Of a stretch of 26,111 nucleotides of DNA, positions 7,865 through 22,015 are shown one piece after another (position 1 is the first letter of the stretch; each line of letters begins with the position of its first letter). Location of the stretch: positions 1 to 26,111 of the IMG/VR virus record IMGVR_UViG_3300033143_002220, one strand, 5' to 3'. The notes under the pieces were generated by a model. That model did not search any database. It was not told the origin of the DNA and was given only the letters and a program-made list of their open reading frames with translations. Origin of the DNA: a virus. A program made the position numbers and the translations under genes.

Positions 7865-7893
7865 ATTATATCATAGAAATTTGCCACTGTCAA
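7865..7893 (-). promoter_or_regulatory. Consensus sigma70 promoter for the late minus-strand operon
   Basis: Read on the minus strand: TTGACA (complement of 7888-7893), 17-bp spacer, TATAAT (complement of 7865-7870). It lies about 40 bp before the first late gene. A perfect host-type promoter here means late genes may not need a phage sigma factor; timing must then come from repression or antisense effects. Confidence 0.88.
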
Positions 7894-8227: not shown

Positions 8228-8260
8228 TGGCACGCTTCTTGCCTGTCAATTATCGTGCCA
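8228..8260 (+). promoter_or_regulatory. Sigma54 (-24/-12)-like element 1 with downstream dyad half
   Basis: TGGCAC (8228-8233), 5 bp, TTGCC (8239-8243) matches the sigma54 consensus. About 19 bp after TGGCACG lies CGTGCCA, an inverted copy of the first half. A sigma70 promoter begins about 10 bp further on. Three related elements occur at 8844, 12825 and 15566. Confidence 0.6.
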
Positions 8261-8843: not shown

Positions 8844-8859
8844 TGGCACGATTCTTGCA
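8844..8859 (+). promoter_or_regulatory. Sigma54 (-24/-12)-like element 2
   Basis: TTGGCACGATTCTTGCA has every conserved base of the sigma54 consensus (TGGCAC 8844-8849, N5, TTGCA 8855-8859). The downstream CGTGCC half lies much further away (about 8910), inside the next repeat. The next gene starts at 9015. Confidence 0.6.
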
Positions 8860-8885: not shown

Positions 8886-8922
8886 GGCGCCGATTATACC
8901 ACACATAATCGTGCCGCGTCAA
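8886..8922 (-). promoter_or_regulatory. Intergenic repeat copy A with leftward sigma70 promoter
   Basis: GGCGCC (8886-8891) then, on the minus strand, TTGACG (complement 8917-8922), 18-bp spacer, TATAAT (complement 8893-8898). The dyad arms are less perfect than in later copies. The promoter points back across 8635-8820, antisense to it. Confidence 0.65.
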
Positions 8923-8958
8923 GCAAGAGTTTTCTATGTGGGTATAAAAACATTCTAT

Positions 8959-8986
8959 TAGACATAAGCTAAAACTATGCTAATAT
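8959..8986 (+). promoter_or_regulatory. Probable promoter for 9015-9492
   Basis: TAGACA (8959-8964), 16 bp, TAATAT (8981-8986). Weaker than others in the window but correctly placed about 28 bp before the next ATG. Confidence 0.5.
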
Positions 8987-9014
8987 TAGGTTACATTTAC
9001 TGAGGAAGCAAATT

Positions 9015-9200
9015 ATGAAAAACCATACAAAAATCAACTCTGTTCACGAAATGAATTATGGGGCACAATCCCGCATGTGGGGCAGATGGCTTAATGGTGA
9101 ATGTATGTTTAATTTTGGGGCTGGTAATTTTACCATAATTAAAACAAGGTTTGGTGCTGGTCGTGTTCGCATCGTTACTAAAATTGCAGAGGAGAAATAA
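9015..9200 (+). CDS. 61-residue basic aromatic protein, unknown
   Basis: ATG at 9015 with GAGGAAG 7 bases upstream. Basic and rich in Gly, Asn, Arg and aromatics (MWGRWLNGECMFNFGAGNF; TRFGAGRVRIV), suggesting a small beta-rich nucleic-acid-binding or ribosome-binding fold. It shares a transcription unit with the next gene, whose ribosome site lies at its end. Not assigned to a family. Confidence 0.62.
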   Translation: MKNHTKINSVHEMNYGAQSRMWGRWLNGECMFNFGAGNFTIIKTRFGAGRVRIVTKIAEEK

Positions 9201-9201
9201 A

Positions 9202-9492
9202 ATGCTTAGAAAAACATACTATCAGGGTGGCATGGGCAAGGTAGCTTTTAATTATTATACCTTGGAATATAAAGGCAGCGGTAATATTGTGGTATATGGC
9301 TGGGGTACCTATGGCCGCTCTAGTGTGCTGGCAGGCCAGAGCCAGAAAACCTTTCTGGATTCATTCAGCTCGGAACAGGCAGCGGTTGCGGCTTTGGTAG
9401 AGGCTGACATTGATCCAGAGGAGGTTCAATGGTCTAATCAATACCTTGAACCACAAAATTCTTTTAACCATCTGGAGGGTAATGACTTATAA
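9202..9492 (+). CDS. 96-residue conserved-type phage protein, unknown
   Basis: I place the start at ATG 9202 rather than an in-frame ATG at 9151 because AGAGGAG lies 8 bases upstream and the earlier start overlaps the previous gene. It shows VVYGWGTYGRSSVLAGQSQKT followed by FLDSF and EQAAVAALVEADI. The segment with WGTYGRSSVLAG looks like a conserved core that I have seen in uncharacterised phage proteins, but I cannot name it. It ends just before the hairpin at 9504-9530. Confidence 0.7.
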   Translation: MLRKTYYQGGMGKVAFNYYTLEYKGSGNIVVYGWGTYGRSSVLAGQSQKTFLDSFSSEQAAVAALVEADIDPEEVQWSNQYLEPQNSFNHLEGNDL

Positions 9493-9503
9493 ATCAATAG
9501 CTT

Positions 9504-9530
9504 ATAACTCCTTGATATATAAGGAGTTAT
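9504..9530 (+). terminator. 10-bp hairpin after 9492, terminator-like
   Basis: ATAACTCCTT (9504-9513) pairs with AAGGAGTTAT (9521-9530) around a 7-base loop. An almost identical hairpin at 10532-10554 has a T-run. Here the following bases are TGGCGCC, so termination is likely weak. Confidence 0.55.
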
Positions 9531-9531
9531 T

Positions 9532-9568
9532 GGCGCCGATTATACCATGTATGATCGGGTGGTGTCAA
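9532..9568 (-). promoter_or_regulatory. Intergenic repeat copy B with leftward sigma70 promoter
   Basis: GGCGCC (9532-9537). Minus strand: TTGACA (complement 9563-9568), 18 bp, TATAAT (complement 9539-9544) preceded by TGG (extended -10). The dyad has one mismatch. Antisense to 9202-9492. Confidence 0.75.
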
Positions 9569-9603
9569 CCAAAAGATTTCTATACGGGCATAAAAATAAA
9601 CAC

Positions 9604-9631
9604 TTGCATTATCTGAAAATAGGTATATACT
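9604..9631 (+). promoter_or_regulatory. Promoter for 9658-10519
   Basis: TTGCAT (9604-9609), 16 bp, TATACT (9626-9631), about 27 bp before the ATG at 9658. Confidence 0.6.
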
Positions 9632-9657
9632 TCTATATAACAACTAGAGGAAATTAC

Positions 9658-9795
9658 ATGATGAAAATATCAAATATAAAAAATACCTTCATTCGCAGAA
9701 TCACCTTAATTCTTGTGGCTATTCCTGCTTTAGTTATCTATTTCCACAATGAAAAAACGGATATGTTAATGTTTGACATTAGGCAAGCATGGTAA
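9658..9795 (+). CDS. 45-residue single-TM protein, unknown
   Basis: Start chosen at ATG 9658 (a second ATG follows directly) because AGAGGAA is 6 bases upstream and the promoter at 9604-9631 would exclude a longer frame. A basic N-terminus (MMKISNIKNTFIRR) is followed by one TM segment (ITLILVAIPALVIYF) and a short polar tail. The stop overlaps the start of the next gene by 7 bases. Confidence 0.6.
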   Translation: MMKISNIKNTFIRRITLILVAIPALVIYFHNEKTDMLMFDIRQAW

Positions 9796-10097
9796 TGATT
9801 GTACAATTTCCCACGACGCTAGTAAGGTTAAAGGTTGCCAAGATTAGGCATGATAATAACCGCAAAAAAGAAAGGGAAGATAAACAATTATTCTACCTTA
9901 CTAAAAATACGGCTAGACTAGCAGCACATCCTGATATACCCCTAGATATAGTGTGTATTAAACACGGTACTGATCTAGTGAATAGATATGATGCAATAAC
10001 AGGGCTACGCTTCGACCAGTGCCCACAATGTATGGGTGATTCTGATAACTTACTAGATAATTATGTTTTGGAGATTGAATTCGATGACCCTGCTTAA
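9789..10097 (+). CDS. 102-residue zinc-ribbon-like protein, unknown
   Basis: ATG at 9789 overlaps the previous gene. The N-terminal 50 residues are basic and helical (KVAKIRHDNNRKKEREDKQ). The C-terminal half has IVCIKH and, 20 residues on, DQCPQCMGD, i.e. C-x2-H...C-x2-C, a possible zinc site. The tail is acidic. It could bind nucleic acid or RNA polymerase, as small phage zinc-ribbon proteins often do; that is inference. Confidence 0.65.
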   Translation: MVMIVQFPTTLVRLKVAKIRHDNNRKKEREDKQLFYLTKNTARLAAHPDIPLDIVCIKHGTDLVNRYDAITGLRFDQCPQCMGDSDNLLDNYVLEIEFDDPA

Positions 10098-10248
10098 AGT
10101 ATGCTATTACAAAAGTAACCGATTTAATATATTACCTTCTGTTTTAGTTACCCCAGAAGGAAACACTTTTATAGTGGCTTTTAAATTTCTACATTGGCAT
10201 TTTGGCATGAAATTTGCATACTATATTGAACCCTTTTCATTAACTTAG
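10084..10248 (+). CDS. 54-residue aromatic protein, unknown
   Basis: I choose ATG 10084 (TTGGAG about 14 bases upstream), overlapping the end of the previous gene by 14 bases; a longer in-frame start at 10063 exists. Content is hydrophobic and aromatic with a central VTPEGNTFIVAFKFLHWHFGM stretch. Not clearly a TM protein. Function unknown. Confidence 0.5.
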   Translation: MTLLKVCYYKSNRFNILPSVLVTPEGNTFIVAFKFLHWHFGMKFAYYIEPFSLT

Positions 10249-10258
10249 GAGAAATAAA

Positions 10259-10519
10259 ATGTTTGGATTAGAATATATATTAGCGGCTGTTAAAGTGTTT
10301 TTTAATGTAGCTTTTGCAATAATGACTGCAATACCTTTTTATTATTGCTGGAATTATATTACACCTATTTACCTTTCTTTTATTCCGGAATTATGGCATA
10401 ATTTGCCCTATTGGGATATTGTAGGGTTATTTTTAGTTTGTACTTTTTTGGGCGAACAAATAAATAAATTAACCCCAAAATTTGTAAAGGTTGATCAGAC
10501 TGTAAATAATTCAGAGTAA
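10259..10519 (+). CDS. 86-residue membrane protein, two to three TM segments
   Basis: ATG 10259 with TAGGAG 8 bases upstream. Hydrophobic stretches lie at about residues 5-30 (YILAAVKVFFNVAFAIMTAI) and 50-65 (DIVGLFLVCTFLG), with Trp/Tyr-rich interfacial parts between. The polar tail ends in VNNSE. Last gene before a strong terminator. A phage inner-membrane protein of unknown role. Confidence 0.65.
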   Translation: MFGLEYILAAVKVFFNVAFAIMTAIPFYYCWNYITPIYLSFIPELWHNLPYWDIVGLFLVCTFLGEQINKLTPKFVKVDQTVNNSE

Positions 10520-10531
10520 TCAATAGCTTAT

Positions 10532-10557
10532 AACTCCTTGATATATAAGGAGTTTTT
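10532..10557 (+). terminator. Rho-independent terminator
   Basis: AACTCCTT (10532-10539), 7-base loop, AAGGAGTT (10547-10554), T-run 10553-10557. Closes the 9658-10519 unit. Confidence 0.8.
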
Positions 10558-10558
10558 C

Positions 10559-10594
10559 GCGCCGATTTTATCACATAAAAGCGGGTGGTGTCAA
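10559..10594 (-). promoter_or_regulatory. Intergenic repeat copy C with leftward sigma70 promoter
   Basis: Minus strand: TTGACA (complement 10589-10594), 18 bp, TAAAAT (complement 10565-10570). Both dyad arms changed together here (left ATTTTAT, right ATAAAA), a compensatory change relative to other copies. Antisense to 10259-10519. Confidence 0.72.
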
Positions 10595-10629
10595 GCAAAA
10601 GTTTTCTATGGAGGTATAAATATAATCGA

Positions 10630-10658
10630 CTGGTATTGCCGGTGGATTTCTGTATAAT
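10630..10658 (+). promoter_or_regulatory. Rightward promoter for 10686-11690
   Basis: TATAAT (10653-10658) with a conserved but non-consensus -35 region CTGGTA (10630-10635), 17-bp spacing. The upstream block TATAAATATAATCGACTGG is shared with copies at 11900 and 13865, so the -35 region may be read with help from an activator. Confidence 0.6.
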
Positions 10659-10685
10659 AGATTTATATTAATAAGGACTAAGAAT

Positions 10686-10922
10686 ATGAGAATAATATTA
10701 ATTCCTGCCTACGGCAGAAAATATAACACAAAACAGGAAATGTTGAACGACTGGAATTCCGGAAAGGATTTCCACATAGTTCAAGGGGCTTATTGCTCTG
10801 TTAGAGATATTACTAATATGATGCGAGATTTCAATTTTATAGAAATAGTATGGATTGATGACTCTGGCACTAAGCCTGATATGCACATACTTTTTGATGG
10901 GGATATATATGATGCTGGATAA
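10686..10922 (+). CDS. 78-residue protein, unknown
   Basis: ATG 10686 with AAGGA 10 bases upstream. Reads as a compact alpha/beta protein: IILIPAYGRKYNTKQEMLNDW, a central FHIVQGAYCSVRDITNMM and an acidic end HILFDGDIYDAG. First gene of a six-gene cassette. No family recognised. Confidence 0.68.
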   Translation: MRIILIPAYGRKYNTKQEMLNDWNSGKDFHIVQGAYCSVRDITNMMRDFNFIEIVWIDDSGTKPDMHILFDGDIYDAG

Positions 10923-10995
10923 ACTATTACTAAAACTATGTGTATTCTATCATGGACTTTTAGGTTACTGGATGGTATTATTATGCGTATCATAA
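10912..10995 (+). CDS. 27-residue hydrophobic peptide
   Basis: A short frame starting at ATG 10912 overlaps the previous gene by 11 bases and the next by 13. The product has a basic start (MLDKLLLKL) and a hydrophobic body (GLLGYWMVLLCV), one TM helix. Accepted on overlap pattern and topology; it could be a chance frame. Confidence 0.38.
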   Translation: MLDKLLLKLCVFYHGLLGYWMVLLCVS

Positions 10996-11063
10996 AAGAT
11001 ATTATCATTTCAATCATTTTTATTATCTTTGCTACTATTGCCATTTTAGCGGGGATGCAATAA
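10983..11063 (+). CDS. 26-residue TM peptide
   Basis: ATG 10983; MRIIKD, then an almost pure Ile/Phe/Ala helix ending AGMQ. Its stop and the next start overlap (TAATG), the usual junction in this phage. A one-helix membrane micropeptide of unknown role. Confidence 0.5.
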   Translation: MRIIKDIIISIIFIIFATIAILAGMQ

Positions 11064-11179
11064 TGAAAATTAAATGTGCAACCACAAAAGAATTGTGGAA
11101 AATGCTGAATACGGGTAGTTATACTATTTATTATAAAACCCTAATTATTGATGAAATGGTTGACAGGGGTTTATTATAA
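11063..11179 (+). CDS. 38-residue protein, unknown
   Basis: Starts at 11063 and ends at 11179, sharing one base with each neighbour (TAATG junctions). Sequence MKIKCATTKELWKML...IIDEMVDRGLL is amphipathic, possibly two helices. Kept because of its exact fit in the gene chain. Confidence 0.5.
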   Translation: MKIKCATTKELWKMLNTGSYTIYYKTLIIDEMVDRGLL

Positions 11180-11400
11180 TGCTAGAATTATTTTATACAT
11201 GCGCTTTATACTGTTATAGTGTAACATTCACACCAGTAGCAGAGGTATCGGATAAGTATTACTATACCGATACATATTTGACTTTCGGGATAGAATCTGA
11301 TACTATAGGCGTATATTTAGAACCCTATATTTATGCTGAAAATGAATATCTGGAAACTGGAATTATTTTATCTTTATCTGTTGACTTTTGGGGGTTATAG
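11179..11400 (+). CDS. 73-residue Tyr-rich acidic protein, unknown
   Basis: ATG 11179 through TAATG coupling. Rich in Tyr and Glu/Asp (DKYYYTDTYLTFGI; VYLEPYIYAENEYLETG), beta-strand-like, with a hydrophobic first segment that might be a weak membrane or signal segment. No motif recognised. Confidence 0.58.
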   Translation: MLELFYTCALYCYSVTFTPVAEVSDKYYYTDTYLTFGIESDTIGVYLEPYIYAENEYLETGIILSLSVDFWGL

Positions 11401-11690
11401 TGCCTGATAAACTTATGGTAACTTGGGAATTTTTACAGGGACATCCTTATTTTATTAAATGTGGTGATCCTTATACCACTGGTAGATATAAATATGTAAA
11501 CGGTAAAATGGTTTTGGAGTTTGCTATTATTTGGAAACAAACAAAATTTAGTTGGAGAAAGTTTGCACAAGTAGCCGATGTTCCTTATATAATTTTGCGC
11601 TGGATTTCAGAAGATGATTTATACTTCCGACCAACCAAAAAAGAAACTGCAATTTTCGACTGTAATAGTTTGACAACTGAGGAAAAATAA
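11400..11690 (+). CDS. 96-residue protein with Trp/Lys-rich body, GTG start
   Basis: I place the start at GTG 11400, which overlaps the previous stop by one base and follows GGGGG; an in-frame TTG at 11388 is possible. Sequence has TWEFLQGHPYFIKCGDPYTTG and WISEDDLYFRPTKKE, suggesting a folded enzyme-like or binding domain. It ends just before the 11693-11698 -10 box, so the next promoter is embedded in its 3' end. Confidence 0.62.
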   Translation: MPDKLMVTWEFLQGHPYFIKCGDPYTTGRYKYVNGKMVLEFAIIWKQTKFSWRKFAQVADVPYIILRWISEDDLYFRPTKKETAIFDCNSLTTEEK

Positions 11691-11698
11691 TATATAAT
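11670..11698 (+). promoter_or_regulatory. Consensus sigma70 promoter for a short noncoding RNA
   Basis: TTGACA (11670-11675), 17 bp, TATAAT (11693-11698), starting inside the end of 11400-11690. No gene begins within 400 bases downstream, and a terminator lies about 100 bases on. Confidence 0.82.
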
Positions 11699-11704
11699 AA
11701 GGAA

Positions 11705-11808
11705 TAAGGGTCGCGACCCCCAAAAACGAAAAAACTGGAGGTGAGGCGGCCGCTGAATCCTGTGATGGTTTTTACTTTTATCCCCTCAACATGCAGGGGT
11801 TTTGTTTT
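11705..11808 (+). ncRNA. Candidate small RNA of about 100 nt
   Basis: Bounded by a perfect promoter (predicted start near 11705) and a rho-independent terminator (11782-11808). Its 5' end is the 12-bp palindrome GGGTCGCGACCC (11708-11719). The middle contains GGAGGTGA (a full match to the anti-Shine-Dalgarno sequence) with no start codon at useful spacing, then the palindrome GCGGCCGC (11746-11753). No sizeable reading frame fits. It may be a regulatory RNA pairing with 16S rRNA or with ribosome-site antisense sequences; this is inference. Confidence 0.62.
11782..11808 (+). terminator. Rho-independent terminator of the small RNA
   Basis: CCCCT (11782-11786), 8-base loop, AGGGG (11795-11799), then TTTTGTTTT (11800-11808). 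Confidence 0.8.
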
Positions 11809-11838
11809 GCCCAAAATATAATAACCCTACTTTTTGTG

Positions 11839-11875
11839 GGCGCCAATTATATCACATATAATTGGGTGGTGTCAA
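11839..11875 (-). promoter_or_regulatory. Intergenic repeat copy D with leftward sigma70 promoter
   Basis: GGCGCC (11839-11844). Minus strand: TTGACA (complement 11870-11875), 18 bp, TATAAT (complement 11846-11851). Dyad AATTATAT-CAC-ATATAATT is perfect, with base pairs different from copies E1 and F. Confidence 0.78.
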
Positions 11876-11910
11876 GCAAAAGTTTTTTATGGGGGTATAA
11901 ATATAATCGA

Positions 11911-11939
11911 CTGGTAATATGGGTAGATGCGTGTATAAT
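11911..11939 (+). promoter_or_regulatory. Rightward promoter of the repeat-D gap
   Basis: CTGGTA (11911-11916), 17 bp, TATAAT (11934-11939), with the same upstream block as 10630. Between it and the next promoter (12031) I find no convincing gene; a 13-codon frame (11948-11989) is the only candidate. Confidence 0.58.
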
Positions 11940-12030
11940 ACTATACATGGACTTGCTAGACAGGGAACCTTATCTGAATACGGCTTGATGGAGATTTTTT
12001 CGGCTAAATTGCAAAAATATGAAAAATCAC

Positions 12031-12059
12031 TTGACAAGACGACGGAATTCATTTAAAAT
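12031..12059 (+). promoter_or_regulatory. Sigma70 promoter for 12099-12521
   Basis: TTGACA (12031-12036), 17 bp, TAAAAT (12054-12059), about 39 bp upstream of the ATG. Confidence 0.78.
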
Positions 12060-12098
12060 AGTCACTCACTTTAACTTAACCAATGGGGCAAAACCATT

Positions 12099-12521
12099 AT
12101 GAATCAAAAATTAAATACAATACAATCACTTAATACAAGGGCGGGTACTATTGCGCAGGCTCGCAGAGAGCTGAAAAATGAATCTGCTTTTATCCGAGAG
12201 GAAAAACGCGGTATGTCACAATCTTTTATCCGTGAAGCATTGGATAAGTTTTTGAGCGTTATGCGCGGTGAACACTGGCAGCAAGATCGTTATATAAATG
12301 GCAGTTATTCGGATGAATTTACACGCCACGTTAGCAGATCAAATAGAAGCTGGTATGGTGCGGCTCGTACTGACGGCCTTAGTGATAACCACACTCAAGC
12401 ACTGATTAATTATCGTGCAGCTTTTATAAAACTTAACACTGCTTTTCTTGAGGCTATTCAAACTGAGGAAGGAAAGGAAAAACTTTTAAGCCGAGCTTGT
12501 TTGAAAAATATCTCAAAATAG
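12099..12521 (+). CDS. 140-residue basic helical protein, unknown
   Basis: ATG 12099; the ribosome site is weak (GGGGC about 10 bases upstream). The protein is basic, Arg/Asn/Ser-rich and largely helical (IQSLNTRAGTIAQARRELKN; SQSFIREALDKFLSVMRGEHW), with a central aromatic/Ser stretch (SRSNRSWYGAARTDGL) and a helical end. Single gene between a strong promoter and a strong terminator, so a monocistronic early cassette. No family recognised; nucleic-acid binding is possible. Confidence 0.72.
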   Translation: MNQKLNTIQSLNTRAGTIAQARRELKNESAFIREEKRGMSQSFIREALDKFLSVMRGEHWQQDRYINGSYSDEFTRHVSRSNRSWYGAARTDGLSDNHTQALINYRAAFIKLNTAFLEAIQTEEGKEKLLSRACLKNISK

Positions 12522-12584
12522 TTGCCCCCTAAAAAAGATCAGTATAATATATTCATAAGGACTGAACAGGACTACTCTTTTTTA

Positions 12585-12608
12585 CCCCTCTTAATTGAGG
12601 GGTTTTTT
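12585..12608 (+). terminator. Rho-independent terminator
   Basis: CCCCTC (12585-12590), 6-base loop TTAATT, GAGGGG (12597-12602), six T (12603-12608). Ends the 12099-12521 unit. Confidence 0.88.
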
Positions 12609-12656
12609 CGTTTTAAAACTTCAAAATAAAAACTCCTTATAAATCAACGACTTAGC

Positions 12657-12693
12657 GGCGCCGATTATACCACGTATAATCGGGCGGTGTCAA
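12657..12693 (-). promoter_or_regulatory. Intergenic repeat copy E1 with leftward sigma70 promoter
   Basis: GGCGCC (12657-12662). Minus strand: TTGACA (complement 12688-12693), 18 bp, TGG-TATAAT (complement 12664-12669). Dyad GATTATAC-CAC-GTATAATC is perfect. Antisense to 12099-12521. Confidence 0.8.
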
Positions 12694-12734
12694 GCTTTTT
12701 CGTACGTTATTTTAATAACCCTACAAAAGGTGGG

Positions 12735-12770
12735 GGCGCCAATTATAGCATATCCGCCCGCGCTTGTCAA
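12735..12770 (-). promoter_or_regulatory. Intergenic repeat copy E2 with leftward sigma70 promoter
   Basis: GGCGCC (12735-12740). Minus strand: TTGACA (complement 12765-12770), 17 bp, TATAAT (complement 12742-12747). The dyad and spacer have diverged but both promoter boxes are intact, which suggests that promoter function is kept. The gap 12522-12931 holds no gene: it contains the terminator, E1, E2, a sigma54-like element and a sigma70 promoter. Confidence 0.75.
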
Positions 12771-12824
12771 TACCCCATAGGGGATATATACAAATTAATT
12801 TGAATATGCTACTATCCAGAAAGT

Positions 12825-12858
12825 TGGCACGGATATTGCAAGGGCAATTATCATGCCA
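12825..12858 (+). promoter_or_regulatory. Sigma54 (-24/-12)-like element 3 with dyad
   Basis: TTGGCACGGATATTGCA is a full sigma54 consensus match (TGGCAC 12825-12830, N5, TTGCA 12836-12840). After 20 bases CATGCCA repeats the first half in inverted form. The -35 of the sigma70 promoter begins about 10 bases later. Confidence 0.62.
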
Positions 12859-12868
12859 GGAATAATGC

Positions 12869-12896
12869 TTGCAATTTGTAACCATAGGCGTATAAT
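12869..12896 (+). promoter_or_regulatory. Sigma70 promoter for the exonuclease gene
   Basis: TTGCAA (12869-12874), 16 bp, TATAAT (12891-12896), 35 bp before the ATG. Confidence 0.68.
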
Positions 12897-12931
12897 ACTT
12901 CTATTCCTTCACATAACCAAGGGCTTTAAAT

Positions 12932-13657
12932 ATGGGCAAAAAATTTACTTACCTTACTATTGATACGGAAACTACTAACGACGATAAAGTGGCAGATTTT
13001 GCGGCTGTTATATCCGACAGAAAAGGTAGGGTATTAAGTCAATGTGCAATACTTGTAAACGGTATTTTTACGGATATGCAAAATCACCCTCTTTTTTGTA
13101 TGGGAGATGATTCCACAGAAAATATATGGGCAAGGGCTAATCTACCAGAAAGATACGAAAAATATAACCGTATGGTAAGTGAGGGTACTCGAATGATTGC
13201 AAGCGTATCTGCAATTAATCGCTGGCTTGACAAGGCAAAAGCTCAATATAATCCTATACTTACGGCCTATAACCTTAAATTTGATGTGGGTAAATGTGCT
13301 AATACTGGAATAGACTTGACAATGTTTGACAAATCATTCTGTTTGTGGTATGCCTCATATACAAAATGGGGTCATTCAAAATCATTTTTAGAATTTGCGC
13401 TAGAAAATCATTGTTTTAATGCCCCTACAAAATATGGGAATATGACAGTCCAAACTAATGCAGAAATTATGGCGCGTTTTGTGTTAGGAAACAGTGACTT
13501 AGAGGATGAACCTCATACGGCACTTGAGGATATTATGTTTTATGAATTGCCGATTTTGAACAAATTGGTAACAACCACAAAATTAGAAACGTATTTAAAC
13601 CCTAGCCCGTATAATTGGCGAGCTATGCAAGCAAAAAACTTATTTAAAGTGAGGTAA
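12932..13657 (+). CDS. DEDDh 3'-5' exonuclease (DnaQ-like)
   Basis: 241 residues with the full DEDDh set: Exo I TIDTETT (D11, E13), Exo II AYNLKFDVG (D118), Exo III PHTALEDIMF (H195, D200). Such enzymes remove nucleotides from 3' ends with two metal ions; in phages they serve proofreading, recombination or host nucleotide recycling. No polymerase domain is fused, and no polymerase gene is visible in the window. A Cys-containing insertion lies at about residues 120-140. It is a single gene with its own promoter and terminator structures. The class is secure, the substrate is not known. Confidence 0.88.
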   Translation: MGKKFTYLTIDTETTNDDKVADFAAVISDRKGRVLSQCAILVNGIFTDMQNHPLFCMGDDSTENIWARANLPERYEKYNRMVSEGTRMIASVSAINRWLDKAKAQYNPILTAYNLKFDVGKCANTGIDLTMFDKSFCLWYASYTKWGHSKSFLEFALENHCFNAPTKYGNMTVQTNAEIMARFVLGNSDLEDEPHTALEDIMFYELPILNKLVTTTKLETYLNPSPYNWRAMQAKNLFKVR

Positions 13658-13665
13658 ATAAAAGC

Positions 13666-13757
13666 AAAACCCACACACAAAGGATGGGCATATGTTCCCA
13701 TAGACAAACTAGGGTTTTCTTTTCCACCCCAAAACTACGGTTATTGGGGTTTTCTTT
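13666..13757 (+). terminator. Double terminator-like RNA structure after the exonuclease gene
   Basis: First structure: AAAACCC (13666-13672) pairs with GGGTTTT (13712-13718), enclosing hairpin ATGGG/CCCAT (13684-13688 / 13697-13701) and followed by CTTTT. Second: CCCCAA (13727-13732) with TTGGGG (13744-13749), then TTTTCTTT. The first is more elaborate than a plain terminator. Confidence 0.65.
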
Positions 13758-13804
13758 GCTTAAAATTTGACAAATAAAAACTCCTTATAAATCAATGACT
13801 TAGC

Positions 13805-13841
13805 GGCGCCAATTATACCATGTATAATTGGGTGGTGTCAA
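13805..13841 (-). promoter_or_regulatory. Intergenic repeat copy F with leftward sigma70 promoter
   Basis: GGCGCC (13805-13810). Minus strand: TTGACA (complement 13836-13841), 18 bp, TGG-TATAAT (complement 13812-13817). Dyad AATTATAC-CAT-GTATAATT is perfect. Antisense to the exonuclease gene. Confidence 0.8.
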
Positions 13842-13876
13842 CCAAAAGTTTTTTATGGGGTCATAAATATAATCAA

Positions 13877-13906
13877 CTGGCAATCTGCAATTAATTCCTG
13901 TAAAAT
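13877..13906 (+). promoter_or_regulatory. Rightward promoter for 13942-14627
   Basis: CTGGCA (13877-13882), 18 bp, TAAAAT (13901-13906), with the block ATAAATATAATCAACTGG upstream as in the other repeat gaps. Confidence 0.58.
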
Positions 13907-13941
13907 TACCAGACAATAAAACAACAGAGGAAACAAAATTT

Positions 13942-14415
13942 ATGCCTATAAAAGAAATTCACATTTATGATATGGATGGATGTATAGTCGATTCCCTTCA
14001 TAGATTTAAGGTTTTACCAAATGGTAAAATTGATTTGCCCTACTGGATAGAAAATTGTACCCCAGAAAAAATAGGGTTGGATACCTTGTTGCCTTTGGCT
14101 AGTCAATATCAGGAACAATTGAAAGACCCTGAAATTTATACGGTTATTGCTACTGCCAGAGTTTTAGAAAAGGCAGACCGTGATTTCATTACAAATATTC
14201 TGGGATTACCTGACAAGGTTATTAGCCGCAACGGTAGAAAAGACCACAGAAAAGGTGCGGATATGAAAATTGCCGGTTTGAGATACCTTAATAATTTAAA
14301 GCAATTTAAATCGGCTATAAAACATTTTTATGAGGATAATAAGGATTATTTATATCCGGTAGCCGAATTTTTAGGTGCTACGCCTCACTATATCCCTTCA
14401 AAACAAGGGGTTTAA
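13942..14415 (+). CDS. HAD-superfamily phosphatase (polynucleotide 3'-phosphatase-like)
   Basis: 157 residues. Motif I YDMDGCIVDS (nucleophile D10, acid D12), motif II VIATAR (T71 at the usual Ser/Thr position), motif III with K104 in RKGADMK, motif IV FYEDN (E131, D132). This is the short cap-less HAD type found in phages, often as the phosphatase part of T4 Pnkp-like repair enzymes or as nucleotidases. No kinase domain is attached. The start is supported by GAGGAAA about 12 bases upstream. Superfamily is firm, substrate open. Confidence 0.85.
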   Translation: MPIKEIHIYDMDGCIVDSLHRFKVLPNGKIDLPYWIENCTPEKIGLDTLLPLASQYQEQLKDPEIYTVIATARVLEKADRDFITNILGLPDKVISRNGRKDHRKGADMKIAGLRYLNNLKQFKSAIKHFYEDNKDYLYPVAEFLGATPHYIPSKQGV

Positions 14416-14420
14416 AGACC

Positions 14421-14627
14421 ATGCAATTTATAGGTTCTTTACTTGCGGCTATTGGTTTTTCATGCCTGTCATTTACCTTTTATTTAGAAGGGTTTATTAT
14501 AGGGTTGCTTTCATGCCTATTTTTAGTGGGGTATTTTAAAGCTACTGGTCAATATTCCCTGTTTTTCTTGCAGTTATTCTTTTCAACCGCAAATTTAATA
14601 GGGATATATAATCAAATTATAATTTGA
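14421..14627 (+). CDS. 68-residue hydrophobic membrane protein
   Basis: ATG 14421, five bases after the HAD stop. Nearly the whole protein is hydrophobic, with two to three TM helices (SLLAAIGFSCLSFTFYLEGF; IIGLLSCLFLVGYF; LFFLQLFFSTANLIGIY). Its stop codon overlaps the -35 box of the next promoter. Role unknown. Confidence 0.65.
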   Translation: MQFIGSLLAAIGFSCLSFTFYLEGFIIGLLSCLFLVGYFKATGQYSLFFLQLFFSTANLIGIYNQIII

Positions 14628-14667
14628 CTTTGGGGTTATAGTCCTGTAAAATTACTGGACTATAACC
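14624..14667 (+). promoter_or_regulatory. Promoter with 11-bp dyad operator around the -10
   Basis: TTGACT (14624-14629), 17 bp, TAAAAT (14647-14652). Perfect inverted repeat GGTTATAGTCC (14634-14644) / GGACTATAACC (14657-14667) flanks the -10 with 12 bases between. This fits a repressor operator; the same bases could fold as a hairpin only in read-through RNA. It drives the TM and SPFH genes. Confidence 0.78.
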
Positions 14668-14683
14668 AATTGAGGAAAATAAA

Positions 14684-14872
14684 ATGTTTTTAAGTTTATT
14701 ATATACGTTATTAACCATTGATATAATTAGCCTTATTGTATTAGTAATGGCTATTAAGGGCGCAAAAATGGGGGATAATCCCCATGAACATTATCAGGAT
14801 TTTGCAGCCGGTTTTCTTATGGGGTTTTTTGTTTTAATAACCCTGATTATAATAACCTTAATTTGGAGTTAA
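14684..14872 (+). CDS. 62-residue two-TM protein
   Basis: ATG 14684 with TGAGGAAA 8 bases upstream. TM helix at about residues 2-24 (LSLLYTLLTIDIISLIVLVMAI), polar loop KGAKMGDNPHEHYQDF, second helix about 41-61 (FAAGFLMGFFVLITLIIIT). Only 3 bases separate it from the SPFH gene, so the two proteins may work together at the membrane (inference). Confidence 0.68.
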   Translation: MFLSLLYTLLTIDIISLIVLVMAIKGAKMGDNPHEHYQDFAAGFLMGFFVLITLIIITLIWS

Positions 14873-14875
14873 GCC

Positions 14876-15403
14876 ATGTTTGATAAATTAATTGATATTA
14901 TACTAGAATTTATAGGGTTATTTCAATTCTGGACGGTTGTGGATACCTATGAGAAAAGTGTGGTTTTACGGTTAGGAAAATATAACCGTACACTTGATAC
15001 GGGCTTTCATTTTATAATCCCTTTTTATATTGAGGTTGTTCTGGTAGATAATACCGTACCTTCTTTAATGGATTTAGGTAGCCAAACACTACAAACGGAA
15101 GATGATATAAATATTGTGGTTACTACTAATGTCCTCTGGGAAATTGTGGATATTAAAAAATTCCTGCTGGATATTGAAGATGCGGAATCCATTATAGAAG
15201 GTGTGGTTTATGGTCAAATTGCCGATTATATTACCAGCACAAAATATGAGGATATTATGGCTGAATCGCCCATGTTACTGAAAGAAAGCCGCATAAAATG
15301 TAAGGTTTATGGTGTTATGATTAAACTCATAACTTTCAGGGATTTTGCAGAAATAAAGACCCTACGAATTATAGGTGATTCGGTGGTTATCCCAGACGAT
15401 TAA
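14876..15403 (+). CDS. SPFH/Band 7 (stomatin-prohibitin-HflK-like) protein
   Basis: 175 residues. Residues 1-20 are hydrophobic (membrane hairpin or anchor). The SPFH core follows: KSVVLRLGKYNRTLDTGFHFIIPF (27-50, the family hallmark), a beta strand with VDNT, TLQTEDDINIVVTTNVLWEI (71-90), and VYGQIADYIT (111-120), then DIMAESPMLLKESRIKCKVYGVMI (126-149), which matches the end of the domain. The long C-terminal coiled coil of cellular members is missing. HflK/HflC relatives regulate FtsH; a phage copy could modulate this or organise membrane patches (inference). Confidence 0.85.
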   Translation: MFDKLIDIILEFIGLFQFWTVVDTYEKSVVLRLGKYNRTLDTGFHFIIPFYIEVVLVDNTVPSLMDLGSQTLQTEDDINIVVTTNVLWEIVDIKKFLLDIEDAESIIEGVVYGQIADYITSTKYEDIMAESPMLLKESRIKCKVYGVMIKLITFRDFAEIKTLRIIGDSVVIPDD

Positions 15404-15431
15404 CCCCACACTTAAAAAGGTATTCCTCCTT

Positions 15432-15456
15432 CCCCACTCTTTTAGTGGGGTTTTTT
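15432..15456 (+). terminator. Rho-independent terminator
   Basis: CCCCACT (15432-15438), 5-base loop, AGTGGGG (15444-15450), six T (15451-15456). Ends the SPFH unit. Confidence 0.9.
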
Positions 15457-15506
15457 ATGCGTGAAATTTAGGGATAGAAAAACTTCAATGAAATCAATGA
15501 CTTAGT

Positions 15507-15543
15507 GGCGCCGATTATATCATATATAATCGGGTGGTGTCAA
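15507..15543 (-). promoter_or_regulatory. Intergenic repeat copy G with leftward sigma70 promoter
   Basis: GGCGCC (15507-15512). Minus strand: TTGACA (complement 15538-15543), 18 bp, TATAAT (complement 15514-15519). Dyad GATTATAT-CAT-ATATAATC is perfect and differs from E1 by paired changes. Antisense to the SPFH gene. Confidence 0.8.
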
Positions 15544-15565
15544 GCGTTTTCGGAAATTAAATTGT

Positions 15566-15599
15566 TGGCATGGTTTTTGCAGGGGCAAATATCGTGCCA
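15566..15599 (+). promoter_or_regulatory. Sigma54-like element 4 with dyad
   Basis: TGGCAT (15566-15571), N5, TTGCA (15577-15581), one base off the -24 consensus. CGTGCCA follows after about 20 bases, as in elements 1 and 3. Confidence 0.58.
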
Positions 15600-15605
15600 A
15601 ATTAT

Positions 15606-15623
15606 TTTTCAATATATTGAAAA
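15606..15623. promoter_or_regulatory. 18-bp perfect palindrome, operator candidate
   Basis: TTTTCAATATATTGAAAA reads the same on both strands. It lies 6 bp before the -35 box of the next promoter, a position suited to an activator or repressor. Confidence 0.65.
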
Positions 15624-15629
15624 TAACTG

Positions 15630-15658
15630 TTGACACCTTCTGAAAATTTCTGTATAAT
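15630..15658 (+). promoter_or_regulatory. Consensus sigma70 promoter for 15725-16060
   Basis: TTGACA (15630-15635), 17 bp, TATAAT (15653-15658). The leader to the ATG is about 60 bases and includes a strong TTTAGGAG site. Confidence 0.88.
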
Positions 15659-15724
15659 TCTTTACATGGAATCGCAAAGGGCGAAACCTAAATCAGAAAT
15701 TAACTTTTAGGAGATTTAAAGAAA

Positions 15725-16060
15725 ATGGCTAAAACTGTAAATTATACCCCAGAGCAAGAAACTGAAATGCGAGCATTGTATATCCCTGAAGAAAGTCAGG
15801 AAAAGCGTGATGCGGTTGTGGAAATGCTGGTCGAAAAATATGCGGCCACTCACAATAAGCGGTCGATTCGTTCAAAACTTTCTAATATGGGCATTTATGT
15901 GCCAATGGAAAAGGTTAGCGCGGTAACTGGCAAGCCAGCAGCAAAAAAGGAAGTTCTAGCGGCTGAATTGGTCGAACTTTCTGGCCTGAATCTGGTATCG
16001 GCTGAAAAGATGCTGGAAGAAACCGTAGTTTCTGAGGTGGAATCCACAACCAGCGACTAA
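15725..16060 (+). CDS. Small HTH-like paralogue 1 (family of three in this window)
   Basis: 111 residues. ATG 15725 behind AGGAG. N-terminal part YTPEQETEMRALYI...RDAVVEMLVEKY, then NKRSIRSKLSNMGIYV (about residues 43-58), which looks like a helix-turn-helix recognition region. After a basic linker with VTGKPAAKKE comes a helical end (ELVELSGLNLVSAEKMLEE). It aligns by eye with the products of 16906-17262 and 21680-22015 along its whole length. All three follow strong promoters or ribosome sites, so they may be abundant DNA-binding or regulatory proteins (inference). No named family recalled. Confidence 0.8.
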   Translation: MAKTVNYTPEQETEMRALYIPEESQEKRDAVVEMLVEKYAATHNKRSIRSKLSNMGIYVPMEKVSAVTGKPAAKKEVLAAELVELSGLNLVSAEKMLEETVVSEVESTTSD

Positions 16061-16086
16061 TCCCTTACTTTCATAATGGTTAAAAA

Positions 16087-16110
16087 GCCCTGCCTTTTGG
16101 TGGGGCTTTT
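16087..16110 (+). terminator. Rho-independent terminator
   Basis: GCCCTGCC (16087-16094), TTTT loop, GGTGGGGC (16099-16106, two G-U pairs), TTTT (16107-16110). Confidence 0.8.
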
Positions 16111-16168
16111 GCGTTGCAAGTCACTGATTTTTAAGAAGAAAAAACTTCAATGAAATCAATGACTTACG

Positions 16169-16205
16169 GGCGCCAATTATACCATGTATAATTGGGTGGT
16201 GTCAA
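16169..16205 (-). promoter_or_regulatory. Intergenic repeat copy H with leftward sigma70 promoter
   Basis: GGCGCC (16169-16174). Minus strand: TTGACA (complement 16200-16205), 18 bp, TGG-TATAAT (complement 16176-16181). Dyad AATTATAC-CAT-GTATAATT is perfect. Antisense to paralogue 1. Confidence 0.8.
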
Positions 16206-16241
16206 GCAAATTCTACTTATGCCCCTATAAGAATGTTTTGG

Positions 16242-16271
16242 TTGACTCCGGCTATGGGCGCATGGTATAAT
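16242..16271 (+). promoter_or_regulatory. Sigma70 promoter with extended -10 reading into noncoding DNA
   Basis: TTGACT (16242-16247), 18 bp, TGG-TATAAT (16266-16271). The next 600 bases contain no convincing gene, so its product is probably an RNA. Confidence 0.8.
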
Positions 16272-16277
16272 GGACTG

Positions 16278-16640
16278 ACGCCCGCAAAATAATAACCCTA
16301 CATTTTGTGTGGGTAATAATAATTCACTTACTTTTGATGGGGTAATTAATTCTGCTTTAAAAAATACGCTACCGCGCCAGTAGTAGTACGACGACGATTA
16401 TTTTTAAGCCTCCCGCGCCAGTAGTAGAGTAACGATTTTATTTGTTTGGGGGTACGCGGAGAAGTACGCAAACTACGGAATTCTGGAAATCAAAAATTTT
16501 CAAAATATCTGCGTTACCGCCGAGTTCCAAACTCAGCGCATGGGCTGCTACGGCAGCTGATTGCGCGAGTACTTGAACGAGTTATTTATAAGAATATTTG
16601 ATTGCATCAGATTTTGATACACACAATCATGCCAGTCAGA
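16278..16640 (+). ncRNA. Gene-free transcribed stretch with strong stem-loops and a direct repeat
   Basis: Downstream of the 16242 promoter. It contains a 15-bp direct repeat CCGCGCCAGTAGTAG (16372-16386 and 16413-16427). A two-part stem-loop follows: GCGCA (16536-16540) with TGCGC (16562-16566), enclosing GCTGC/GCAGC (16544-16548 / 16553-16557) closed by a TACG tetraloop of the stable UNCG type. Just before it GAG-TTCCAAA-CTC can form a 7-base loop. No frame with a ribosome site was found. I see no terminator with a T-run, so the 3' end is undefined. Confidence 0.45.
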
Positions 16641-16659
16641 AAGTGAAGTGTCTCACCGC

Positions 16660-16693
16660 GCCAAATTATATCACAGTACCAGGACGATGTCAA
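16660..16693 (-). promoter_or_regulatory. Intergenic repeat copy I (diverged) with leftward sigma70 promoter
   Basis: GCGCC, then minus strand: TTGACA (complement 16688-16693), 17 bp, TATAAT (complement 16665-16670). The dyad is lost but both boxes are perfect. It points back over the 16278-16640 noncoding RNA. Confidence 0.75.
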
Positions 16694-16710
16694 GAAGTAT
16701 TTTATTTGTG

Positions 16711-16739
16711 TTGACATGTGTGCTGAATTACTGTATAAT
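16711..16739 (+). promoter_or_regulatory. Consensus sigma70 promoter for leader/small RNA
   Basis: TTGACA (16711-16716), 17 bp, TATAAT (16734-16739). First of two perfect promoters ahead of paralogue 2. Confidence 0.88.
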
Positions 16740-16745
16740 ATGTAT

Positions 16746-16854
16746 ATGAGTTTTGGGAGAGAGTTGGCATAACAAGGAAGTAAAAATAAGGATGTTGCCA
16801 ATAAGGAAGTTAAGTAGCCAAATGGAAAATACATGTTGACTCTCTCCCATTTTT
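16746..16854 (+). ncRNA. Candidate GGA-rich small RNA (CsrA-sponge-like)
   Basis: The RNA from the 16711 promoter would start near 16746. Closing stem GGGAGAGAGT (16755-16764) pairs with ACTCTCTCCC (16839-16848), followed by ATTTTT. Inside, TTGGC(AT)AACA pairs with TGTTGCCAA (16764-16774 / 16793-16801), leaving a purine loop. Four A-N-GGA motifs occur (AAGGA three times, ATGGA once), the type bound by CsrA/RsmA. A 15-codon frame with AAGGAAG upstream begins at 16792 (ATG TTG CCA...), so a leader peptide is a rival reading. Confidence 0.5.
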
Positions 16855-16864
16855 AATATATAAT
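16836..16864 (+). promoter_or_regulatory. Consensus sigma70 promoter for paralogue 2
   Basis: TTGACT (16836-16841), 17 bp, TATAAT (16859-16864). Its -35 and spacer overlap the 3' arm of the small-RNA closing stem. The leader has a good CAGGAG site 10 bases before the ATG. Confidence 0.87.
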
Positions 16865-16905
16865 AGTATCTTATTAATTAGTTAACCAATCAGGAGAATT
16901 TTGGA

Positions 16906-17262
16906 ATGACCGAATCAGTATATACAGAAGCAGTAGTAGCAGAAATGGTTAAGGTTTATAACGAGGTTATTAACCGTGACTACGACGCACGTACAGCAGT
17001 AGTAAAGCAGCTGGCTACTAATCTTGGCCAGACCGTCGCATCAGTTCGTTCGAAGCTGGTAGCAGAAAAGGTATACAAGGCGAAGGAAGCCTCAGCAAGC
17101 TCTGCAAAGGGCATCACTAAGGAAGAGTACGTCAAGGCTCTGGAAGCAATGGCAGGCACATCGCTGACTTCATTCACGAAGGCAAGCAAGAAGGATCTTA
17201 AGGCACTGATGGACTTCATCGTCGCTGCCTCAGCAACAAAGGATGCCGACGAAGGTCGGTAA
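16906..17262 (+). CDS. Small HTH-like paralogue 2
   Basis: 118 residues. YTEAVVAEMVKVYNEV...RTAVVKQLATNLGQTVASVRSKLVAEKVYKAKE lines up with paralogues 1 and 3 (the RSKL/AKL...Y segment at about residues 47-57). The C-terminus GTSLTSFTKASKKDLKALMDFI resembles a short SAP/HeH-type helical unit. Codon use is GC-richer than neighbours (many AAG, GCA, CTG, ATC), typical of high expression or a different origin. Two perfect promoters precede it and a 280-base structured RNA follows, so it is probably one of the most strongly expressed genes here. Function unknown. Confidence 0.8.
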   Translation: MTESVYTEAVVAEMVKVYNEVINRDYDARTAVVKQLATNLGQTVASVRSKLVAEKVYKAKEASASSAKGITKEEYVKALEAMAGTSLTSFTKASKKDLKALMDFIVAASATKDADEGR

Positions 17263-17268
17263 AAGGTA

Positions 17269-17545
17269 TAGCTAGCTGCTACAGGTGTGAAACAGAACCT
17301 ACAGTGGCTAGCTAAATTAATAGGTACTTCTTCGCAATACTAGTGCAATGATACATCGAAGTGGTAGGCATACCTGCAGGGCGAGCCTACTGACCTATTT
17401 TATAAGTGTTTTTCTCGGTGGGGTACTATAACACTACGGAACCGAGAGCTTGGGCGAGTTGCCAGCCCCGCAAGCGCACTGCGTCAGCAATCACTGAACT
17501 GCCCATCCCTGGCCTCCGTGCATTAGGGGGATGGGTGGTTTTTTT
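17269..17545 (+). ncRNA. Highly structured 3' RNA ending in a strong terminator
   Basis: Five helices in order: TAGCTAGC/GCTAGCTA (17269-17276 / 17307-17314); a three-way junction closed by AATAGGT/ACCTATT (17319-17325 / 17393-17399) with arms ACTTC/GAAGT (17326-17330 / 17358-17362) and GTAGGC/GCCTAC (17364-17369 / 17385-17390); TCTCGGT/ACCGAGA (17413-17419 / 17441-17447); GCTTG/CAAGC (17448-17452 / 17471-17475) over GGC/GCC. The terminator CCCATCCC/GGGATGGG with seven T follows. No convincing separate promoter, so it is probably a 3' UTR or a processed small RNA. Not a tRNA. Confidence 0.65.
17502..17545 (+). terminator. Rho-independent terminator
   Basis: CCCATCCC (17502-17509), 18-base loop, GGGATGGG (17528-17535), TGG then seven T (17539-17545). 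Confidence 0.88.
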
Positions 17546-17592
17546 ATTTAGTAAACTGCGCCGAACCCGGCCTAGTACTCCCATTATGTAAT

Positions 17593-17622
17593 ATTATACC
17601 ACATTTCGCAAATATTTGTCAA
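17593..17622 (-). promoter_or_regulatory. Leftward sigma70 promoter, diverged repeat copy J
   Basis: Minus strand: TTGACA (complement 17617-17622), 18 bp, TGG-TATAAT (complement 17593-17598). GCGCC occurs at 17558-17562 rather than directly adjacent. It reads antisense to the structured RNA and paralogue 2. Confidence 0.72.
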
Positions 17623-17639
17623 GTCTTATTTTCCAGCGG

Positions 17640-17830
17640 TCAAGCCTCGCTGCGCTCGGCATCAGTCTATATTTCCTCTAAATCAGTGTAATTCTGGCAA
17701 ATCCGGGGCTAATCGCTCTAATTTAGGCTAACTCGCGGCGAAGGCCGCTAATTGGCTGGAGTTGGAATTTTCGCGTACCGCCGCCCGTTTATCTGTAGAT
17801 ACGGTGACCTTTTTGAACTTGGTGGTCAAT
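17640..17830 (+). other. Gene-free GC-richer stretch with repeated CTAAT motifs
   Basis: Five CTAAT/CTAAC-type words at irregular spacing (about 17709-17713, 17718-17722, 17728-17732, 17748-17752 and the GGCTGG end), plus GCGGCG...CGCTAA around 17735-17750. No gene with a ribosome site. Possibly a protein-binding array or a remnant. Confidence 0.35.
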
Positions 17831-17867
17831 TTCGAGTTGACATGTAATGAAAGTATTAAAAAATATG

Positions 17868-17898
17868 AGTTGACAATCAACTCAAATTGGAGTATAAT
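17868..17898 (+). promoter_or_regulatory. Consensus sigma70 promoter with operator over the -35
   Basis: TTGACA (17870-17875), 17 bp, TATAAT (17893-17898). The inverted repeat GAGTTGA-CAA-TCAACTC (17868-17884) covers the -35. A further GAGTTGACA lies at 17834-17842. This is the start of the long operon to 20675. Confidence 0.85.
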
Positions 17899-17942
17899 TA
17901 TTATATTAATTGAAACAACTAACTATTTAGGAGAATACAAAT

Positions 17943-21503: not shown

Positions 21504-21687
21504 AACAGAAATTGAAATTGAGGGCAGACCCACATATACTAGATACTTAGTTTCAGTACCCAGAATGGGCGAATTTATTAAGGTTGAAACCCCCGAAATA
21601 GATTTATATATGCCAGTTAAAAAGGTTATTTGGGATTTCATTAATAGTAGCGTAAAAGTTATAGCAGGAGTACCAGACATTGGCTAA
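21496..21687 (+). CDS. 63-residue beta-type protein, GTG start
   Basis: GTG 21496 chosen over ATG 21463 because GAAGGAG lies about 10 bases upstream and the overlap with the previous gene becomes short. KTEIEIEGRPTYTRYLVSVPRMGEFI...VETPEIDLYMPVKKVIWDF is strand-rich, small barrel-like. Overlaps paralogue 3 by 8 bases. Confidence 0.58.
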   Translation: MYKTEIEIEGRPTYTRYLVSVPRMGEFIKVETPEIDLYMPVKKVIWDFINSSVKVIAGVPDIG

Positions 21688-22015
21688 ACAAAAGTATTCA
21701 ATTAAAGACGAAGAATTAATGCGTAAGACGTATATTACTGATGCGTCGCAAGAAGAAAGGGATGAAGCAGTACTAGACTTAGCTGAACAGTTGGGTAATA
21801 CAAAACGCTCGATTATAGCGAAGCTATCGAAAATGAGGATTTATAAGTCTAAAGCTAGAACTAGCAAGGTGACTGGTGGCAAGGCCGAGACTAAGGAACA
21901 GTTGGTACGTAGAATTGAGGAGCGATTGGGCTATGAACTCGAAGAGTTTGAAGGCCTGGAAAAGGCTCCTAAGCTGGTACTGTTGAAACTATTGAAAAGT
22001 GGGGTAACTAAATAA
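21680..22015 (+). CDS. Small HTH-like paralogue 3
   Basis: 111 residues, TTG start with AGGAG upstream. YSIKDEELMRKTYIT...SQEERDEAVLDLAEQLGNTKRSIIAKLSKMRIYKSKART is closely similar to paralogue 1 (SQEKRDAVV...NKRSIRSKLSNMGIY), followed by SKVTGGKAETKE versus SAVTGKPAAKKE. The C-terminal GYELEEFEGLEKAPKLVLLKLL resembles that of paralogue 2. Sequence identity by eye is highest with paralogue 1. Basic centre suggests DNA binding. Confidence 0.8.
   Translation: MAKQKYSIKDEELMRKTYITDASQEERDEAVLDLAEQLGNTKRSIIAKLSKMRIYKSKARTSKVTGGKAETKEQLVRRIEERLGYELEEFEGLEKAPKLVLLKLLKSGVTK

Follow-up and report, generated by a model that had tools for sequence, protein, structure and literature searches.

A near-perfect host promoter set in palindromes faces backwards at almost every early-gene boundary of uncultivated phages, apparently as a brake on, or boundary against, the neighbouring gene

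We analysed a 26,111-base uncultivated-virus record (the window), in which a block of ~36 bp with the recurring pattern GCGCC...(C/T)GTCAA was present between small early-gene cassettes in ten leftward copies (8887-16693). Each copy carries a predicted leftward sigma70 promoter, and one further leftward promoter follows them:

8887..8922, minus strand, block copy 1: TTGACG-18-TATAAT-GGCGC; dyad 8891-8911 with 7-bp arms and a 7-nt loop
9533..9568, minus strand, block copy 2: TTGACA-18-TATAAT; dyad 9536-9558 with one G-T mismatch; +1 palindrome 9504-9530
10559..10594, minus strand, block copy 3: TTGACA-18-TAAAAT, the opposite arm changed complementarily; +1 palindrome 10532-10554
11840..11875, minus strand, block copy 4: dyad 11843-11865
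12658..12693, minus strand, block copy 5: dyad 12661-12683
12736..12770, minus strand, block copy 6: promoter retained (17-bp spacer), dyad lost
13806..13841, minus strand, block copy 7: dyad 13809-13831
15508..15543, minus strand, block copy 8: dyad 15511-15533
16170..16205, minus strand, block copy 9: dyad 16173-16195
16658..16693, minus strand, block copy 10: promoter retained (17-bp spacer), dyad lost
17593..17622, minus strand, consensus leftward promoter without the GCGCC block

We observed that the −35 was TTGACA in all window blocks except 8887 (TTGACG) and the −10 was TATAAT in all except 10559 (TAAAAT). The spacer measured 18 bp except at 12736 and 16658, where it was 17 bp, and an extended −10 TG was present in 11/11 leftward promoters (the ten blocks and 17593). 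With −35 and −10 hexamers 16-18 bp apart, the blocks are predicted members of the sigma70 promoter class. The exact form TTGACA-N17/18-TATAAT occurred 17 times in the window compared to 0.05 expected; this count, together with a read-backwards control, ruled out chance promoter matches. An earlier note on this DNA had described recurring intergenic leftward sigma70 promoters with TTGACA everywhere but at 8886, a single −10 other than TATAAT, 17-18 bp between the boxes and often an extended TG. This observation held, with consensus or near-consensus boxes and just the two exceptions given above, and the TG was universal among the eleven. Its view of 17593 as a diverged block copy did not hold: this is a consensus promoter, not counted as a block because the GCGCC part is absent. 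Absent from the note were both palindromes, the GC richness of the discriminator, the rightward promoters paired divergently with the blocks, and the host-regulator sites. One of these palindromes (palindrome 2) is the dyad found in 8/10 window copies, for example CCAATTATAC-CAT-GTATAATTGG, with the −10 inside its left arm.

To follow the block beyond the window, as the earlier note had proposed, we collected copies with a degenerate pattern and by reading longer stretches. This yielded 164 block copies in 33 uncultivated phage contigs, 32 of which held at least two; among INPHARED isolates, no block match above 80% was found. Likewise, megablast of window positions 1-25,000 and tblastn of the array proteins tried matched nothing among known isolates. 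Block matches in host genomes (22, scattered over Bacteroidales, Chloroflexi and others) were rejected as chance-like. Orientation was single within each of the 33 contigs (164 copies, none mixed) and opposed the early genes. The −35 was TTGACA in 155 copies and the −10 was TATAAT in 110 and TAAAAT in 53, a conservation that is partly by construction because the contigs were found through promoter-containing patterns. To lessen this bias, we looked in these contigs for GCGCC accompanied by a perfect AT-rich dyad, whether or not promoter boxes were present, and discarded opposite-strand readings and hairpin-1 palindromes (described below). Of the roughly 122 dyads left, 117 (about 96%) had both boxes correctly spaced, and four of the five exceptions had TTGACC. 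Because this dyad-only search still recovers the boxes, the promoter and the palindrome are both maintained. Conversely, the promoter was kept in copies without a dyad (window 12736 and 16658, three in contig L153, whose terminase is 68% identical, and several in L089). The earlier proposal of selection on promoter function is thus well supported.

The arms of palindrome 2 differ within one genome yet stay complementary. A perfect stem of at least 7 bp was present in 104/147 distinct blocks, compared to a mean of 1.2 with shuffled spacers. Among 51 gapless copies, we counted 42 double changes, against 18.8 after shuffling and at most 10 for slid partners. The stem register shifts, the centre moves and the loop varies from 2 to 9 nt, whereas a symmetric operator for one repressor would have conserved half-sites and a fixed centre. 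Mismatches were nearly absent from 112 stems (one G-T, no A-C). Together, the varying arms, the moving register and loop and the scarcity of mismatches argue against one homodimeric repressor. The near-absence of G-U type mismatches also suggests that the pairing is more like that of a DNA palindrome than of a structured RNA. Template-switching palindrome correction could also keep the arms matched. At the gathering threshold no Rfam family matched the window, and 16050-17900 gave only a sub-threshold, chance-like match. We rejected integron attC sites, as inspection of the aligned blocks revealed no RYYYAAC/GTTRRRY core.

Read in gene direction, the boundary unit consists of the upstream gene, often an intrinsic terminator, the hairpin-1 palindrome, GCGCC, palindrome 2, GTGTCAA, a rightward promoter and the next gene. 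The following features complete the unit in the window:

11782..11799, plus strand, gene-direction intrinsic terminator ahead of block 11840
12584..12603, plus strand, gene-direction intrinsic terminator ~55 bp ahead of block 12658, its reverse side without a T-run
15432..15450, plus strand, gene-direction intrinsic terminator ~57 bp ahead of block 15508
16092..16106, plus strand, gene-direction intrinsic terminator ahead of block 16170
15630..15658, plus strand, rightward consensus promoter, divergent partner of block 15508
16242..16271, plus strand, rightward promoter TTGACT-18-TATAAT, partner of block 16170
16711..16739, plus strand, rightward consensus promoter, partner of block 16658

Compared to 43 other consensus promoters from the same contigs, block promoters more often had an 18-bp spacer (91% vs 21%) and a palindrome of at least 8 bp near +1 (50% vs 2%), and their discriminator GC was higher (74% vs 33%). 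They are therefore a distinct class, defined by the 18-bp spacer, the GCGC discriminator, usually a +1 palindrome and usually a second palindrome over the −10 and spacer. In 74% of copies hairpin 1 lay above the 95% null; its usual start was 0-6 nt after GCGC, at about +1 of the leftward RNA. Hairpin 1 was rejected as a general intrinsic terminator: the T content that follows was not raised overall, and only 15/164 copies qualified as leftward terminators. Rightward promoters matching at least 11 of 12 positions lay within 170 nt of 22 copies, compared to none in shuffles. Four window blocks were preceded by a rightward terminator without a reverse T-run, and in relatives such a terminator lay within 250 nt of 43/164 copies (3 in shuffles). 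At L146:6680, L077:3251 and L080:5328 we noticed block variants whose palindrome is long and whose −10 lies in the other arm. A second leftward promoter family, with CACTG before the −10, AGTGGAAAACCTTG-type repeats and no dyad, was seen in L011 (7020-7150 and 9121), L150, L155 and L083.

The nearest upstream open reading frame (ORF) was rightward, and so antisense to the block promoter, in 126/156 cases, and the nearest right-hand ORF was rightward in 110/148. No ORF that the block promoters would serve was evident on the leftward strand. All blocks faced the terminase/late side in the window and in contigs L007, L011 and L143; the leftward, antisense, late-facing layout first described for the window thus extends to these relatives. 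Such a layout would suit an array whose leftward transcripts silence early genes and, after crossing the early region, add to transcription of the late operon. We consider this the least likely of the readings weighed here, as an ordinary leftward promoter at 7865 already serves the late operon, the boundary adjoining that operon has no block, and intrinsic terminators facing the leftward transcript lay within 250 nt of 37/164 copies (about 1 in shuffles). Silencing of early genes, one of two functions suggested earlier, stays plausible; the promoter at 7865 and these terminators weaken the other, feeding of late transcription. The terminators suggest that leftward transcripts are produced yet frequently end early; this speaks more for interference or a boundary role than for antisense RNA or late feeding.

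We also assessed host-regulator-type sites, which are sequence matches to consensuses written from general knowledge, in array DNA (180 kb) and the rest of the contigs (366 kb). Strict sigma54 −24/−12 elements numbered 26 in arrays (0.1 shuffled, 1 in the rest), Fur boxes 18 (0 shuffled, 1 in the rest), parS sites 6 (0 and 0) and NtrC-like sites 5 (0.1 and 0); searching with the sigma54, Fur and parS motifs reversed, as a control, gave 0 for each. These counts are not fully independent, as some contigs are related. Enrichment of LexA, CRP, FNR, ArgR and DnaA sites in array DNA was not convincing. Fur-like boxes occupied the +1 palindrome slot in 13/101 hairpins, compared to 0.065 for arm-shuffled palindromes. 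The Fur core started exactly 21 nt before the block in 13/28 sites and NtrC-like sites 23 nt before it, so that both span about +1 to +25. parS preceded the block by 39-47 nt, and many of the sigma54 sites that point in gene direction followed it by 64-98 nt. Sites were also found in tandem and on both strands, including three perfect Fur boxes with a 30-bp period beside a consensus promoter (L079 1813-1885) and sigma54-type sites 18 bp apart in L143. About 370 bp of L143 (10100-10470) held three tandem GTTAGTAAGTGCTCACT-type palindromes, several sigma54-type sites and one Fur box. A TTATCCACA repeat cluster, DnaA-box-like and not enriched array-wide, adjoined a block at L011:6961-7017. Sigma54-type sites were the only regulator-type sites found in the window, where TGGCA(C/T)-N5-TTGC elements occurred at 8228, 8844, 10203, 12825 and 15566-15599, several in inverted pairs:

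8844..8858, plus strand, sigma54-type −24/−12 element TGGCACGATTCTTGC
12825..12839, plus strand, sigma54-type element TGGCACGGATATTGC, with an inverted relative at 12843-12858
15566..15599, no strand assigned, palindrome with sigma54-type elements on both strands

Two readings take these sites as their starting point. Intergenic high-affinity sites might act as a sponge that titrates host sigma70 and sigma54 polymerase, Fur, NtrC and ParB as phage genomes multiply, a reading consistent with the enrichment, the tandem and two-stranded arrangement and the Fur-type hairpins. We consider it unlikely: a sponge needs neither uniform orientation nor a fixed register to the cassettes, about ten sites per genome are few for abundant proteins, five regulators lacked convincing enrichment, related contigs are not independent, and host-factor regulation of phage promoters predicts the same motifs. 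Its fuller form, in which palindromised, non-productive promoters and operators would capture these proteins and so disable host regulation without a protein inhibitor, seems slightly less likely still. Alternatively, a different host regulator at +1 could repress each antisense switch, so that early genes would follow the iron, nitrogen or segregation state, as the register of the Fur and NtrC-like sites would allow. In unrelated phages of Alphaproteobacteria, phage genes are controlled through host CtrA sites (PMC9437464), a point in favour of the sensor reading. The CtrA sites resemble those here as focused sets of host global-regulator sites, but involve one regulator, whereas the arrays hold several types built into an antisense promoter array. 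Most hairpin-1 palindromes, including all in the window, match no recognised regulator, and we regard the sensor as very unlikely.

Our preferred reading, held tentatively, is that the block is a cassette-boundary module: a head-on leftward promoter whose transcriptional interference would brake or insulate the cassette before it, with proteins at the palindromes probably acting as the gate. The sequences, their conservation and orientation, the palindromic covariation and the neighbourhood were seen directly. From these we infer that polymerase binds and initiates at the block. The leftward host-sigma70 promoter would point straight into the preceding cassette and, in most cases, diverge from the rightward promoter that serves the following one; RNA polymerase that starts at the leftward promoter or occupies it would hinder rightward transcription of the preceding cassette. 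Interference would block read-through and lower expression of the upstream gene; the effect would come from firing or occupancy rather than from any encoded product. Promoter strength is probably tuned by proteins or DNA folding at the two palindromes, one at +1 and one covering the −10 and spacer. In E. coli, antisense promoters behind terminators repress a gene in proportion to promoter strength (PMC4731013). Those engineered parts share the order of gene, unidirectional terminator and back-reading promoter with the blocks, which differ in being natural, repeated and equipped with palindromes.

Several observations weigh against a head-on brake. The immediate leftward terminator at hairpin 1 in 15/164 copies rules out the making of long antisense RNA as the blocks' general purpose. 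Head-on promoters alone require neither strict palindrome complementarity nor sigma54, Fur and parS sites, and the sponge and sensor readings explain the gathering of host-regulator sites better. Uniform orientation could also follow from joint spread with the cassettes.

T4-type phages carry promoter early stem-loop (PeSL) motifs. As far as these are described through a citation in PMC4503421 and general knowledge, both they and the blocks are short promoter and stem-loop composites that separate small early genes and are densest where genes have been shuffled. The blocks could thus be recombination joints whose repeats let cassettes shuffle, with promoter and palindromes largely carried along; the composites do lie at cassette borders, and shared exonuclease, HAD-like and SprT-like genes differ in order among the window, L011 and L143. 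We find this improbable, since block arms diverge, the boxes are kept where the remainder decayed, and the promoter faces away from the right-hand cassette instead of driving it as a PeSL promoter does. On the same partial description, the second palindrome over the −10, the GCGC discriminator and the host-regulator sites also set the blocks apart from PeSLs.

Symmetry around the −10 recalls bidirectional promoters, whose −10s overlap and whose starts are usually 18 bp apart (7-25; PMC10268837). We rejected this candidate: the block dyad places the −10s back to back, with about 29 bp between starts by geometry, outside 7-25 bp, and its symmetry reaches beyond the −10. The extended start-associated sequences (ESAS) of Cluster K mycobacteriophages are likewise dispersed inverted repeats with a variable spacer beside small non-structural genes, but they lie at translation starts with a conserved consensus (PMC3203893), whereas the blocks are promoters at gene ends. 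If the head-on reading is true, this uncultivated phage clade would hold a natural counterpart of an engineered gene-tuning part: an antisense promoter, its core self-complementary, repeated at almost all borders between early genes. The arrays raise the question of why palindromic DNA lies in a promoter core. The co-located host global-regulator consensus sites make it testable whether a phage reads, blocks or soaks up host transcription factors through DNA alone.

Many arrays also encode two to four GcrA-like helix-turn-helix (HTH) proteins per phage. The window has three:

15725..16060, plus strand, small GcrA-like HTH protein
16906..17262, plus strand, second GcrA-like paralogue
21680-22015, further small GcrA-like HTH paralogue

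GcrA is a sigma70 cofactor, and we consider these proteins candidate regulators of the block promoters. PF07750 was matched by 23/35 members (best 7e-7), with the first member below the curated cutoff (24.4 vs 26.9). The N-terminal HTH of an AlphaFold 2 (AF2) model aligned with a viral protein annotated as GcrA (51 aa, 1.3 Å); comparison with solved structures gave no match below 0.001.

Long, apparently non-coding stretches lie at the array end in L011 (7750-9060) and the window (17263-17560). They matched no Rfam family apart from a tRNA at L011:8306-8377. One early cassette of the window encodes an SPFH/Band 7 protein (14876-15403).

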